NCBI GenBank assembly: GCA_013388895.1
Contig: JACAEK010000007.1
Location: 1 to 32,933, forward strand
Direction: 5' to 3'
Source: Candidatus Bathyarchaeota archaeon
GTDB lineage: Archaea > Thermoproteota > Bathyarchaeia > Bathyarchaeales > Bathycorpusculaceae
DNA length: 32,933 bases
Positions 22,153 to 27,321 of this stretch are shown piece after piece. How positions within the stretch are numbered: position 1 is the first letter of the stretch; every line of letters begins with the position of its first letter. The notes below the pieces were generated by a model, which did no database searches, was not told the DNA's origin, and worked only from the letters and a program-made list of their open reading frames with translations. A program made the translations under genes and the position numbers.

Positions 22153-22256
22153 CTAAATCTTCACTCTTTGAAAACAGAATTTTTTCCTATTAACTTTACC
22201 CCTTTTAGGCAAAGCTTATTTTATATTGAAGCAAATGAAATGACGTACAAGATGAG

Positions 22257-23693
22257 ATGAACAAGATGAGGTTTTCATTCATAAACCCAAGCCAAACACC
22301 AGGCGGTTTGGAAATGTGCACAAAAGCGTGGCCACCTTTAGGTCTGCTGTATTGTGCCGGAGTCTTAATTAAAGAAGGGTATGACGCGTCATTGCTTGAC
22401 CAAACGGTTAAGGGTTTCACTCATGAACAGGCTGTGGATTGGGTTAAGAAAGAAGACCCAGACATCTTGGGCTTATCAGTTTTGCACAGCGCAGCGAAAG
22501 AAGCGCCTAAGATTGCTGAGCTTGTGAAGAAAGAGAATCCAAACATTAAGGTTGTTATGGGTAATTATCATGCTACTTTTAACGGTGAGAGAATTCTCAA
22601 AAAATATCCTTCTATTGACATCATTGTTCGGGGCGAAGGCGAATACGGATGCCTCGAACTGGTCAGATGTTTGGAAAAAGGCGGTGATTTACGAGAAGTT
22701 GAGGGTATAACCTTCAGAAATGATGGCAAAATCTTTTCTACACCAGATAGACAGTTGATTCAAAACATTGACGAGCTTCCTTTTCCCGACCGGGACCTAA
22801 TGAATGCTGAGTATACGTCAACGATTTTTGGAGTAAAAGTTGCCACAAAAAAATTTACCACAGTCCTTTCTTCAAGGGGCTGTTCGTTCCGATGCACTTT
22901 TTGTGGATGCCGAAAATTCATCAAGGGAATTTGGCGGCCGAGGTCTGTGGAAAACATAATGAAAGAATTATGGCTTTTACGAAGCCAAGGTTACGAGGAA
23001 ATTCTTTTCGTAGACGACAACTTCACTCTGAACAGGAAAAGAGTGAAACAGCTCTGTCAAAGAATGAGAAAAGAAGGATTGAATATTCGCTGGATTTGTG
23101 ATTCGCGGGTGGATAATAGTGAATATGACATGTTTAGGCAGATGGTGAAGGCTGGCTGTAACACGGTCTATTTTGGAATAGAAAGCGCAAACCAGAGGAT
23201 TTTGGACTATTATAGGAAGGGTATAACGCCACAGCAGACTATGGAGGCTGTTCGCAAAGCCAGAAAAGCAGGAGTAGACATTATTGTAGGCTCTTTCATA
23301 GTCGGAGCACCAGATGAAACTCGCAGCGAAGTTGAAAATACATTAAGATTTGCAGAAAAACTGGACATCGATGTGCCTTCACTGAACATTCTTGGAGCTT
23401 TTTCCGGCACGGAAATCTGGAATGAGCTTATAGCTAAAGGCTTAATCAACGAAGACGAATGCTGGGAAACAGCCATATATGTTCCAACTGTCTCGCCAAA
23501 CACCATTCCATTCGAGGAAATGCGCAAGATGATTTACGATCATTTCCGAGAATTCTATTTCCGCCCTAAGAAAATGGTGAAGGAAATACTGCAAACGCTA
23601 AAGAGTTCTTATCGACTGGGAGTGCTTTTTGCAAATCTTCCAAGAATCAATTCTGTCATTAATGATGTGAAACAAGGCGTCAGGTACGGCTAG
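22257..23693 (+). CDS. B12-binding-domain radical SAM enzyme (class B type)
   Basis: A 478-residue enzyme. Residues 1-145 form a cobalamin-binding-like Rossmann domain (PPLGLLYCAGVLIKEGY; VVMGNYHATFN), followed by the radical SAM barrel with the [4Fe-4S] motif Cys209-x3-Cys213-x2-Cys216 (SRGCSFRCTFC). The C-terminus FYFRPKKMVKEIL is typical of B12-dependent radical SAM methyltransferases and related ring-forming enzymes. The substrate is unknown; archaeal relatives include lipid-modifying enzymes. It heads a tight three-gene operon with another radical SAM enzyme and a kinase-like protein. A TATA-like TTATTTTATA stretch about 30-40 nt upstream suggests a short leader. Confidence 0.88.
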   Translation: MNKMRFSFINPSQTPGGLEMCTKAWPPLGLLYCAGVLIKEGYDASLLDQTVKGFTHEQAVDWVKKEDPDILGLSVLHSAAKEAPKIAELVKKENPNIKVVMGNYHATFNGERILKKYPSIDIIVRGEGEYGCLELVRCLEKGGDLREVEGITFRNDGKIFSTPDRQLIQNIDELPFPDRDLMNAEYTSTIFGVKVATKKFTTVLSSRGCSFRCTFCGCRKFIKGIWRPRSVENIMKELWLLRSQGYEEILFVDDNFTLNRKRVKQLCQRMRKEGLNIRWICDSRVDNSEYDMFRQMVKAGCNTVYFGIESANQRILDYYRKGITPQQTMEAVRKARKAGVDIIVGSFIVGAPDETRSEVENTLRFAEKLDIDVPSLNILGAFSGTEIWNELIAKGLINEDECWETAIYVPTVSPNTIPFEEMRKMIYDHFREFYFRPKKMVKEILQTLKSSYRLGVLFANLPRINSVINDVKQGVRYG

Positions 23694-24764
23694 GTGCCCA
23701 TGAAATACCCGGTAAGAAATTTTCTCAAATGTTGCATCAACAGTTTCGTTTTAAAAAATCCAACTCCGCTGTTGCTAAGTTTCGAGATTACTCAAAAATG
23801 CAATGCCAAGTGCAGTTTTTGCGGTTATTGGAGACTTAAGAATCCATCTCTTGGGCTTCCTTTGGATAAGATAAAGAAAATAGTAGATGATGGCTACGAT
23901 TTAGGCTGCGTGCTTCTAGGCATAACAGGTGGCGAACCGCTTCTGAGGAAAGATTTGCCTCAAGTTTTCAAATATGCCAGAAAAACAGGATTTTCCACCC
24001 TTCTCTTAACAAATGGTTACTTGCTTCCCAAAAGGATTCATGAGTTTCACGGCTTTCTTGATGCAATTAATGTTAGTGTGGATTTTCCAGATTCTCGCCA
24101 TGACAAAATCAGAGGCGTAGCTAATCTGTTTGAGCGAACAATTAGGGGCATACGGCTTGCGGGAAGATATGGCGTTTCCACGAACATGAATTGTGTGATA
24201 ACAGCCGAGCACAGTTTAGAAGATATAAGAAAGCTATTGTTTATGGCGAAAGAGCTAGACAGCACGGCTTCTTTCGAGCCTGTTTTTCAGACGCCTAACC
24301 CAAACGGGTCCATTTTGGGCACTATGTCAAAGGATGATGCTGATTTAGTTAAGATAAATGATTGGAATTTTATTAAGCATGTTGCCGAAATGCTTCTCTT
24401 CTACAAGAAACACGGCTATGGAAAAACTATATTGAACACTGAGGCATTCCTCAAACTCATACGCGAAAAAGCCGACTTCACTTGTTATCCTTTTTCGTTG
24501 CAGTTGGGAATCGCATATGACGGAGAAGTAACCTCCATGTGCGTAACTGGCTTGCCAAAAGGCTATTTGGGTAATGCCTTGACCCAAGATTTGAAAGAGA
24601 TTTGGTATTCTGAACGAGCCCAAACCCTGAGAGACAAGTATAAGCATTGCAGATTAGCCAGACCTTACGGCTGCTACCTCTTCTGTGTTGCTGAACCCTC
24701 TCTACCATTCACAGATTCAAAAATCTTCTATGAGTATGCGAAAAGAGCAATCCGATTTTCATGA
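23694..24764 (+). CDS. Radical SAM enzyme with SPASM-like C-terminal cysteines
   Basis: A 356-residue radical SAM protein. The cluster motif is Cys36-x3-Cys40-x2-Cys43 (TQKCNAKCSFC), with the SAM-binding GGEPLL next. The C-terminal part has a Cys-rich pattern (TCYPF, MCVTG, HCRLARPYGCYLFC) like SPASM/twitch domains that hold an extra iron-sulfur cluster. Such enzymes modify peptides, lipids or cofactors; HpnH- and MoaA-like relatives exist, and the substrate is unknown. GTG 23694 abuts the stop of the preceding gene; ATG 23700 is an alternative. Its stop overlaps the next start (ATGA), indicating translational coupling. Confidence 0.87.
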   Translation: MPMKYPVRNFLKCCINSFVLKNPTPLLLSFEITQKCNAKCSFCGYWRLKNPSLGLPLDKIKKIVDDGYDLGCVLLGITGGEPLLRKDLPQVFKYARKTGFSTLLLTNGYLLPKRIHEFHGFLDAINVSVDFPDSRHDKIRGVANLFERTIRGIRLAGRYGVSTNMNCVITAEHSLEDIRKLLFMAKELDSTASFEPVFQTPNPNGSILGTMSKDDADLVKINDWNFIKHVAEMLLFYKKHGYGKTILNTEAFLKLIREKADFTCYPFSLQLGIAYDGEVTSMCVTGLPKGYLGNALTQDLKEIWYSERAQTLRDKYKHCRLARPYGCYLFCVAEPSLPFTDSKIFYEYAKRAIRFS

Positions 24765-25519
24765 AAAAACCATTTCGAATAATTATTGAGAAATTAAGCG
24801 AGGAGCCTTACGCATCTGTAATATGTTATCCTAAAGCCACTATGAATGAATTAAGTAACCGCCTAAAAGAACTTCAAAAGCTAGACATCATAGCATTAGA
24901 GTTTAAAGGAGAAAAAGAAGTCTTCAACTTGCCAGTTCTAGGTAAGGGTTGCGTGGGCATTGTTTTAACAGCCTACAGAAACAGAGAAAAAGTGGCGTTA
25001 AAGATTCGCAGAGTAGATGCTGACCGCTCTGGAATGCAACAAGAGGCGAAGATGCTTAGAAAGGCAAATTCAGTCGATGTTGGACCTAAGTTCTTAGATG
25101 TAAGCAACAATTTTCTTTTGATGCAGTTTATTAACGGCATTCTGTTTCCGGAATGGCTAGAGAAACATGGAGGAAAGAGTCTTGTGAAGAAGGTTTTACA
25201 TGAAATCTTGGAGCAGTGTTGGCGTTTGGATAAGTCTGGCTTAGACCATGGAGAATTGAGCCACGCGCCAAAACACATAGTCATCGATGCGAACAACATG
25301 CCCATCATAGTTGATTTTGAAACAGCAAGCGTCAAACGAAAACCTTCAAACGTAACTTCAATCTGCCAATTCCTCTTCATCAGCGGTTCGGTTGCCAAAA
25401 GAATAGCTGAAACGCTTAACGTAAAAGACATGAATGCAATTATAGAGGTTTTAAGACGTTACAAAAATGATAGGACACGCGAAAATTTTGAAAGCATACT
25501 GAAGGTTTGCTACTTCTAA
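24761..25519 (+). CDS. Archaeal predicted Ser/Thr protein kinase (RIO/Bud32-like)
   Basis: A 252-residue kinase-like protein with an N-terminal winged-helix-like segment (1-50), a Gly-rich loop GKGCVGIV (61-68), Lys81 (VALKIRR), Glu95, a catalytic-loop-like HGELSHAPKHIVID (163-176) and the metal-binding DFE (185-187). It matches the archaeal 'predicted Ser/Thr kinase' group (COG2112 type) rather than eukaryotic-like kinases; the catalytic loop has HGE where HxD is canonical. It overlaps the radical SAM gene by 4 nt, so the kinase and the two radical SAM enzymes probably act in one process. Its stop overlaps that of the small minus-strand gene. Confidence 0.8.
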   Translation: MKKPFRIIIEKLSEEPYASVICYPKATMNELSNRLKELQKLDIIALEFKGEKEVFNLPVLGKGCVGIVLTAYRNREKVALKIRRVDADRSGMQQEAKMLRKANSVDVGPKFLDVSNNFLLMQFINGILFPEWLEKHGGKSLVKKVLHEILEQCWRLDKSGLDHGELSHAPKHIVIDANNMPIIVDFETASVKRKPSNVTSICQFLFISGSVAKRIAETLNVKDMNAIIEVLRRYKNDRTRENFESILKVCYF

Positions 25520-25704
25520 ACTATATAGCTAGTTGCTGAATGCGTATTTTGGCTATTTTTTCCCAGTTTTTCAATGCCTAACTCTTTCACAAGCTGAGAT
25601 AAATCAAGCCACGTTTCAACCTGAAGCTGCCTTGCAACTTTCTTCTTATTATAAAGCAATGGAATAGAATCTACGAAAAGCCAGCCGAAAGCCTCCTCAG
25701 CCAT
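25516..25704 (-). CDS. Small protein of unknown function (62 residues)
   Basis: Not recognised. The sequence MAEEAFGWLFVDSIPLLYNK then a Lys/Arg patch and WLDLSQLVKELGIEKLGKN looks like a compact helical protein rather than a chance ORF. Supports: an ATG preceded by a strong purine tract (GAGGGAGAAGGGAG), placement in an otherwise empty gap, and a 4-nt stop-stop overlap with the kinase gene, exactly as at the other four convergent gene ends here. It could still be a chance ORF. Confidence 0.45.
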   Translation of the reverse strand: MAEEAFGWLFVDSIPLLYNKKKVARQLQVETWLDLSQLVKELGIEKLGKNSQNTHSATSYIV

Positions 25705-25887
25705 TTTCTTTTCTCCCTTCTCCCTCTAAAATGAAAAACTCAATTTTTCCTAATAACTGTGTATGTAAAAATGCGATAGAAGAAAATTCTAGAAGAAAAA
25801 GCAATTCAAACAATGGTTTTACTGAGAAATGTGAAAAAGACTTAAAACATTGAATCTTGAAATTCCTTAACCGAATTGGTGAAATTG

Positions 25888-27321
25888 ATGGCTATAAAAA
25901 GGGAAGAAATGCAGGAAATTGTTCGAAAATATCAGGAACCCATAGGACTAAATCTGGGTTCACATTCAGCCTTAGACGCGTGGCAAGGCCAACGAAACTA
26001 TGGGTTAAGAAGCATAATCTTCACCACGCCAGGTAGAGCACGAATTTATCTCCAAAATCCTATGGTTGGAAAACCAGAAGAACCTGTGGAAGATTTGCCC
26101 CGTCTTGTGAGAAGAGACTTATGCGTCGTAAACGACCCTAAGGACATAAAGAAAACGGACGATTGGAGAAGCGCAATAATAATTCTTGACAAGTATTCTG
26201 ACATAGTCAAATATGCTGATGACCTTGTTAACTTGGAGTGCCTGCAGATTACTAACAGAGCCTTCGCAGTTTACGTAGGCGGAGACGAAAACTGCAGCGT
26301 AATTGAAAACAGCTACGCTGTTCCCATACTTGGCTCGAGAACACTGCTGAAAATAGAGAACAGAGGCGAAATCGAGAAAGACTACTACTGGTTTGCCGAG
26401 CAATCAGGCATTCCCACTCCAAAATCATACAAATACGAAGTTCATGAAGGCGGAATAACTTTCAAAGAACCAGTAGACGAGCCAATGATTCTGAAGGCAG
26501 AGCATGCTCACAGGGCTTTTGAAAGAGAATTTATTTTCGCCGCTGATTCGAGGGATTTGGAAGAGAAAGTCGCAAGGGAAGTTAGAGCTGGAAACTTGAG
26601 CAAAGAAGCCTTAGAAAATGGTCGCATCGAGCAGATTGTGCTTGGTCCACATGCCAATTTTAACTTTTTCTTCTCGCCATTGGACGCCAAAAGCGAATGG
26701 GGAGACACAGACGACTGGTTCGCCAAACTTTACAACGTAAGCTTGGAAGAGGCTAGAATCTGCTTGGCTAACCAGTTCCTCTCAATAGACGAGCGAAGAG
26801 AAACCATACTTGACGGCTTAAAGCGACTGCCATCAGACGTTCAGGAAAGGATAAAAAGAGTTCCCTCCTTCGAAGTGACAGCCCACGCTATTCTAAGTCT
26901 TAGAGAATCACTTTTGAAGGACTTACATCGTTACGCTGACCGCTTCTTACTTGCATGCAGAGAACATGCTTCTCCTGGAATAATTGGTGCGTGGTGTTTG
27001 CAGACGCTAATCACTTGGGACCGAGTCTCAAAATACGAGTTGAAGCCTACAACTAAACTTGATTTCACGATAGGCGCAGAAGCAAAGACGTCAACTGATT
27101 ACGGTTTGTATGATACACATAAGGAAAGTGACCCATACATGCACATTCCTGTGACGCAAGACGTTGCTTTGAGGCATGGTGGAGGAACAAACGTTCACAT
27201 GGGCTTAGGTTCCCAATATGCGAATGCGAAATACAAGAAGCCGATGAGCACTGGCGACCGCATAGCGCTAGAAATTAGAAGAGCATTAAAAACAGGACAA
27301 CTACACGAAATAGTTACTTAG
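25888..27321 (+). CDS. purP: PurP-family ATP-grasp formate-dependent ligase (FAICAR synthetase-like), extended
   Basis: A 477-residue ATP-grasp protein. PurP makes FAICAR from AICAR, formate and ATP in archaeal purine synthesis. Family features: LGSHSALDAWQGQRNYGLRS near the N-terminus, LGPHANFNFFFSPL and the SIDERRETILDGLKRLP segment in the middle, and the C-terminal MSTGDRIALEIRRALKTGQL. It is over 100 residues longer than typical PurP (about 360), the extra lying in the second half, so it may be a divergent paralogue. ATG 25888 follows GGTGA; the ORF opens at TTG 25876. It is convergent with purC, fitting a purine cluster. Confidence 0.8.
   Translation: MAIKREEMQEIVRKYQEPIGLNLGSHSALDAWQGQRNYGLRSIIFTTPGRARIYLQNPMVGKPEEPVEDLPRLVRRDLCVVNDPKDIKKTDDWRSAIIILDKYSDIVKYADDLVNLECLQITNRAFAVYVGGDENCSVIENSYAVPILGSRTLLKIENRGEIEKDYYWFAEQSGIPTPKSYKYEVHEGGITFKEPVDEPMILKAEHAHRAFEREFIFAADSRDLEEKVAREVRAGNLSKEALENGRIEQIVLGPHANFNFFFSPLDAKSEWGDTDDWFAKLYNVSLEEARICLANQFLSIDERRETILDGLKRLPSDVQERIKRVPSFEVTAHAILSLRESLLKDLHRYADRFLLACREHASPGIIGAWCLQTLITWDRVSKYELKPTTKLDFTIGAEAKTSTDYGLYDTHKESDPYMHIPVTQDVALRHGGGTNVHMGLGSQYANAKYKKPMSTGDRIALEIRRALKTGQLHEIVT

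Follow-up and report, generated by a model that had tools for sequence, protein, structure and literature searches.

The closest described relative of one of the genes considered here is TkArkI of T. kodakarensis. According to the available part of PMC9095486, it is a member of COG2112 and an archaeal transfer RNA (tRNA) U47 2'-O-kinase, in which HGQ replaces the HRD motif and DFE replaces DFG. The same source reports that alanine replacement of K32, G33, K51, E65, H130, Q132, K137, D149 or K201 abolishes activity mostly or fully, that other replacements are milder and that R202A has a mild effect only. A second group of described enzymes, HpnJ, BchE and OxsB, are cobalamin-dependent radical S-adenosylmethionine (SAM) enzymes of ring formation or rearrangement, not methylation, with HpnJ and BchE members acting on hopanoids and porphyrins (PMC13142503, available part). 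A relative of each is encoded in a three-gene locus (P1, P2 and P3; Table 1) on a stretch of 32,933 nucleotides (nt), hereafter the window, from a Candidatus Bathyarchaeota archaeon of the class Bathyarchaeia, family Bathycorpusculaceae (GenBank assembly GCA_013388895.1, contig JACAEK010000007.1, positions 1 to 32,933), whose genome comprises 1.58 Mb in 58 contigs and is approximately 96% complete. The reading favoured here, with a probability of about 0.65, is that a housekeeping tRNA kinase, ArkI, is co-transcribed with an unrelated, clade-specific radical-SAM pair. No paper on the trio, or on the arkI-cca cluster described below, was found among the open-licence papers listed in searches of PubMed Central (PMC).

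On sequence and predicted structure, P3 is assigned to ArkI, the tRNA U47 2'-O-kinase family. Its best solved relative by phmmer is TkArkI (7vnx, E=4e-17), followed by 8yv4 and 8yv5 (E=1e-6). An AlphaFold model of P3, with a mean predicted local distance difference test (pLDDT) score of 90.6, again placed 7vnx at rank 1 in a fold search (E=9.2e-13, template modelling scores 0.67/0.77), with structures of the G. acetivorans RNA kinase Ark1 bound to ATP at ranks 2 and 3 (E=1.1e-7 and 1.3e-7), followed by a pre-40S ribosome chain (3.8e-7) and general protein kinases, and with RIOK2 chains lower. TkArkI and G. acetivorans Ark1 lead both the sequence search and the fold search. In Pfam, RIO1 passes narrowly (25.6 bits, cut-off 22) and Pkinase falls under its cut-off, while the Bud32 model reaches 25.6 bits against a cut-off of 199 and P3 has no HxD loop.

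The landmarks of P3 are GKG at residues 61-63, K81, E95, HGE at 163-165, K171, DFE at 185-187, N197, T199 and YK at 234-235, and the protein shares with ArkI of known structure (PDB 7vnx, 8yv5) the fold, the P-loop K-G, Lys81, Glu95, the H-G-E/Q loop, Lys171, DFE, N-x-T and Y-K. Among the residues tested by mutation in the available part of PMC9095486, K32, G33, K51, E65, H130, K137, D149, N160, T162, Y200 and K201 are kept in the window protein, as mapped through the phmmer alignment with R95 left unmapped. Two sites differ, E standing for Q132 and N for R202; E in place of Q132 is not among the mutants in the available part of that paper. P3 is thus unlike TkArkI in reading HGE rather than HGQ, in ending the YKR motif of its C-terminal helix (Y234 and K235 being present) with N, in its 252 residues against a 216-residue structure, and in the position of its gene behind two radical-SAM genes. 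The preliminary description had considered HGE in place of HxD unusual for such a kinase. This cannot be upheld, as COG2112 holds the characterised tRNA kinase (PMC9095486, available part) and HGE is the ordinary state of the loop in ArkI of this class. In 93 class sequences, both P-loop residues, K81, E95, H163, G164, D185, F186 and N197 are invariant, E165 is present in 92 (one Q), E187 in 92 (one G) and K171 in 77 (13 R); in the C-terminal part, T199 occurs in 86, Y234 in 92 and K235 in 82 (nine R), and the R202 position is variable. The idea that HGE marks a degenerate kinase was rejected on the 92/93 conservation of the loop. By analogy with TkArkI, P3 most likely phosphorylates the 2'-OH of tRNA U47; the variable loop of both window tRNAs closes, as read here, with GUC, which puts a U at the position taken to be 47.

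ArkI was found in 123 of 151 sampled class genomes, in 82 of the 87 good ones, and in 54 of 60 nearer relatives of the window genome. Neighbourhoods were read for 93 of 148 ArkI genomes, mostly the higher-scoring ones, and 92 of these loci have an upstream open reading frame (ORF). In 35 of the 93 loci, the next gene upstream of arkI, on its strand, belongs to the CCA-adding-enzyme cluster, identified by Pfam on one representative (L185:2058-3485); in 26 of these loci that gene directly follows one of a LigT/ThpR-like cluster (representative L188). In 40 loci arkI has a same-strand neighbour no more than 60 nt away, namely the CCA cluster in 33, P2 in three and single cases in four. The thpR-cca-arkI cluster is likely to be a tRNA-maturation operon that includes the tRNA kinase. 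An aEF-2 cluster gene is immediately upstream of arkI on the opposite strand in 16 loci and on the same strand in four, and in the window's own family arkI is usually found outside the cca cluster and often adjoins the aEF-2 cluster and purP, purC or purE. The frequency of ArkI is alike whether a class genome has a reverse gyrase match (17 of 21) or has none (106 of 130), in a tally made by hand with many genomes incomplete; the approximately 96% complete window genome has no reverse gyrase match at E≤1e-100. ArkI does not track hyperthermophily in this class.

Table 1. Coordinates of the features discussed, as positions in the window
Feature	Positions	Strand	Description
Promoter-like stretch CCTATTAACTTTAC..GCAAAGCTTATTTTATAT	22186..22226	+	Resembles region directly upstream of arkI in relatives without radical-SAM genes
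P1	22257..23693	+	ORF, 478 aa (amino acids); B12-binding and Radical_SAM (Pfam)
P2	23694..24764	+	ORF, 356 aa from GTG; Radical_SAM and SPASM (Pfam)
P3 = ArkI (COG2112 family)	24761..25519	+	ORF, 252 aa; weak RIO1/Pkinase matches (Pfam)
Small conserved ORF	25516..25704	-	62 aa; tail-to-tail with arkI, stop codons overlapping
PurP-like protein	25876-27321		481 aa; DUF1246/DUF1297

The three ORFs were confirmed where the preliminary description had placed them, with an ATGA overlap joining the P2 stop and the arkI start (24761-24764). Between the window genome (G000) and its genus-mate G151, the ratio of nonsynonymous to synonymous substitution (dN/dS) is 0.055 for P1, 0.054 for P2, where dS is 1.12 and near saturation, and 0.147 for P3, in this one genome pair. 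All three genes are under purifying selection and are therefore not chance ORFs; they are real and constrained. The claim that the genes abut or overlap stands in so far as the arrangement is tight, and needs correction in detail. P2 probably starts at ATG 23700 (354 aa), because G151 has GTT in place of the GTG at 23694 and retains the ATG at 23700, and P1 and P2 are then probably separated by 6 nt and do not abut. The 4-nt overlap of P2 and arkI is specific to the window genome, the stop-to-start gaps read directly from the sequences of the other three genomes carrying P2 being +5 (G151), +17 (G166) and +17 nt (G157). Homologues of P1 align from Met4 (22266), a possible alternative start. 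The trio is likely to form a tight operon with its products made together, as originally proposed.

P2 is far more restricted than arkI. Gene identities and family memberships, the distribution in sampled genomes and the conserved P2-arkI neighbourhood were all computed. P2 occurs in four of 90 family genomes (E≤1e-45), namely G000, G151 (same genus, 88% identity), G166 (71%) and G157 (71%), in one of 151 class genomes (E≤1e-40) and in one of 398 phylum genomes (E≤1e-60), the class and phylum surveys having scored, for many genomes, no more than a portion of their first-look candidates (up to 13 and up to five, respectively, among the rows shown). On these counts the trio was rejected as a widely conserved archaeal operon. 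Conservation of the gene order in relatives, by which the preliminary description proposed to judge the locus, does exist and is narrow: the full trio is found in three genomes of two genera (G000, G151, G166) and P2-arkI alone in a fourth (G157), with P2 directly upstream of arkI in all four. The trio is intact in G151. The G166 locus is divided between two contigs, one closing with P1-P2 and the other opening with arkI; their ends overlap exactly by 55 bases, which makes contiguity very probable. The P1 of G151 has 91% identity to that of the window and the P1 of G166 has 82%; in G157 no P1 remnant was detected at the P2-arkI locus (best E 0.15), nor any P1 at E≤1e-100 in its genome, which is 80% complete. 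Profile matches to P1 or P2 relatives (E≤1e-5) on the same strand within three ORFs of arkI were confined to G000, G151 and G157 among the 93 loci, the fourth carrier, G166, being split there by a contig end; two further loci (L181 and L186) have a match at the third ORF from arkI on the other strand. An aEF-2 gene stands beside the pair in G166 and, in two pieces, in G157, and is not there in G000 or G151. The in-frame TGA in the P2 orthologues of G151 and G157 is a stop codon near the aligned end. In the G166 orthologue (L129, about 7619) a TGA is found at the codon of Trp46, for which a pseudogene, an assembly error or recoding are possible.

P1 combines B12-binding (79.7 bits) and Radical_SAM (110.8 bits) domains in Pfam with CxxxCxxC at residues 209-216, and this combination, together with an alignment of 15 homologues, places it in the cobalamin-dependent radical-SAM superfamily. 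Its best model matches, HpnJ (TIGR03471, 235.6 bits) and BchE (TIGR02026, 235.5 bits), have the same order of B12-binding then radical-SAM domain, although P1 differs from both in scoring below half of either curated equivalog cut-off (577.6 and 481.35). P1 may be of the non-methylating kind represented by HpnJ, BchE and OxsB, methylation also being possible; the reaction that it performs with cobalamin is probably a radical one, namely C-C bond formation, rearrangement or C-methylation. Relatives of P1 (E≤1e-150, at least 48% identity) occur in 22 of 151 class genomes, its own included, and by profile in 20 of the 398 genomes of the phylum, all but one of which belong to the class, with only part of the candidates scored in some genomes of both surveys. 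No ArkI match was obtained for six of the 22 P1 genomes (G117, G130, G009, G036, G046 and G101, the last counted by its absence from the match table) vs 22 of the 129 others, in a tally by hand. At 23 P1 loci of non-carriers (L090-L109 and L154-L156, some cut by contig ends) neither ArkI nor a P2-like gene of at least 35% identity was found; locus L094 has a radical-SAM gene 33% identical to P2 at a distance of about 3 kb. The neighbours of P1 at these loci are lineage-specific and many are housekeeping genes (fumarase, succinyl-CoA ligase, glycosyltransferase and others), and a function for P1 could not be drawn from neighbours that vary by lineage. A 233-aa gene of one cluster, an NAD/FAD-binding oxidoreductase by Pfam (on L107), directly follows P1 in L105, L107, L109 and L156, which are from related genomes, and could be an electron donor of P1.

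P2 is a predicted radical-SAM enzyme with auxiliary cluster(s). Radical_SAM scores 85.9 bits and SPASM 29.5 bits against a Pfam cut-off of 21.5, and five auxiliary cysteines (264, 283, 319, 327 and 331) are invariant in ten aligned homologues, which places P2 among SPASM radical-SAM proteins. The best NCBIfam model is TIGR03961, the PTO1314 family (119.3 bits, under the cut-off of 306.05), a cut-off passed by two of six P2 paralogues of relatives. The AlphaFold model of P2 is nearest to BlsE, SuiB, SkfB and PqqE, matches which, with pLDDT below 50 for 65 of 356 residues, indicate a SPASM-type fold and no more. P2 shares CxxxCxxC, the five auxiliary cysteines and the fold with the PTO1314 family, PqqE, SuiB and BlsE; unlike PTO1314-type and SPASM relatives it has an extra stretch around residues 205-222, and it is 28-30% identical to its paralogues in relatives over the alignment, up to 40% over shorter stretches. 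The earlier judgement that the substrate of neither radical-SAM protein is identifiable is borne out.

Two histories of the pair fit the data, an insertion long ago that was lost repeatedly afterwards, and exchange by recombination. The GC contents of P1 (0.424) and P2 (0.415) are close to that of the window (0.423), and the identity of P2 to its G166 and G157 orthologues (71-72%) lies inside the range of neighbouring genes (59-86%, with two low values, 38 and 29%, from paralogue matches set aside). Recent transfer is disfavoured on both grounds, and an old presence with repeated loss is favoured, since P2 identities and GC are in line with their surroundings. Simple vertical descent is another matter, as ArkI of G158, G171 and G006 is closer to that of the window (70-73%) than is ArkI of the carriers G166 and G157 (65-66%), yet these genomes lack P2, which counts against it. 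G153, the sister of G157, is also without P2. Neither the arkI tree (25 genomes) nor that of OGG, PurC and PurE together (24 genomes) unites the carriers in one clade, deep support being weak.

The upstream promoter-like element precedes P1 in G000, G151 and G166 and P2 in G157, and is seen in part upstream of arkI in the non-carriers G160, G153 and G132. The pair would on this evidence lie between a candidate arkI upstream element and arkI, as though a promoter had been captured. Under the favoured reading, ArkI would phosphorylate the 2'-OH of U47 in tRNAs and brace the tRNA core as in T. kodakarensis, and arkI would be a housekeeping gene in the wider class, often the last of the thpR-cca-arkI (tRNA 3'-end processing) cluster. 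P1 and P2 would have come between arkI and its upstream region in an ancestor that gave rise to a few genera, and the pair and arkI would now be read as one unit, with the kinase co-expressed and most likely outside the pair's chemistry. The independence of P1 draws on the six P1 genomes with no ArkI match and on the 23 P1 loci of non-carriers. From the computed results we infer the U47 activity, the co-transcription, the promoter capture and the separate working of the pair.

Several observations weigh against this reading. Comparison of the upstream element was visual, without statistics, and in several of the other non-carriers inspected no such element stands out. In the fold search 7vnx alone is far ahead, and the gap in E between the Ark1 structures and the pre-40S chain is small. 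The eraser KptA was not found in the approximately 96% complete window genome. The lower dN/dS of P1 and P2 indicates, for the one genome pair, slower evolution of these two genes than of arkI. P2 is moreover confined to the position adjoining arkI across about 28% amino-acid divergence and three genera that are ungrouped in trees, a persistence that could mean a functional tie. Such a tie is the basis of the proposal that the trio is one RNA-modification pathway, in which the tRNAs phosphorylated by ArkI at U47 also have a core nucleotide modified by P2, together with P1 in genomes that have it. Besides the exclusive placement of P2 next to arkI in all four carriers from three genera, this proposal gains from the tRNA and translation genes that often neighbour ArkI elsewhere and from the existence of radical-SAM enzymes that modify tRNA, such as TYW1, MiaB and QueE. 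It is nonetheless unlikely, given that P1 relatives occur without ArkI and apart from arkI, that Pfam finds no RNA-binding domain in P1 or P2, that the nearest models and structures of P2 include peptide, cofactor and nucleoside-antibiotic enzymes, and that 122 of 123 ArkI-bearing class genomes have no P2 match at E≤1e-40. It is a doubtful prospect, too, that P2, plus P1 in most carriers, constitutes a new radical-SAM system that works together with ArkI on the core of the tRNA; if it does, a doubly modified tRNA would exist in a few Bathyarchaeia only, and P2 beside arkI in every carrier would be the trace of the link.

The two ideas of the preliminary description on the role of the kinase fared less well, and no evidence was found for either. 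That P1 and P2 form a membrane-lipid or cofactor pathway, activated or regulated by the kinase-like protein, accords with HpnJ and BchE as the best models of P1, but is improbable when the closest solved relatives of ArkI are RNA kinases, ArkI is present in most of the class, mostly without radical-SAM neighbours in the 93 loci, and the P1 homologues examined sit among differing housekeeping genes. That the kinase is itself the substrate, modified post-translationally by the radical-SAM enzymes, draws on adjacency alone and on the peptide maturases SuiB and SkfB among the nearest folds of P2; it is very improbable, as the catalytic and YK residues of the window ArkI are the same as in most non-carriers. 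Against both ideas stand the retention of the mapped catalytic residues (with E for Q132), the wide occurrence of ArkI and its place behind a CCA gene in 35 of 93 loci.

Downstream of arkI, the small conserved ORF has no Pfam family above cut-off, was found in 24 of the 93 ArkI loci (tblastn E≤1e-4) and is convergent with arkI in all 24; it adjoins arkI in more genomes than the radical-SAM genes do. At the place of the PurP-like protein beyond it, many members of the family carry a pair of PurP-like genes, of some 361 and 365 aa.

These results identify arkI as widespread in an archaeal class that is large and for the most part uncultured. From the recurrence of thpR-cca-arkI, phosphorylation of U47 would seem to be a part of tRNA maturation, and the occurrence of ArkI in genomes without a reverse gyrase match means that this modification may matter beyond hyperthermophiles. 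The radical-SAM pair beside arkI in the window is a clade-restricted, uncharacterised enzyme system.

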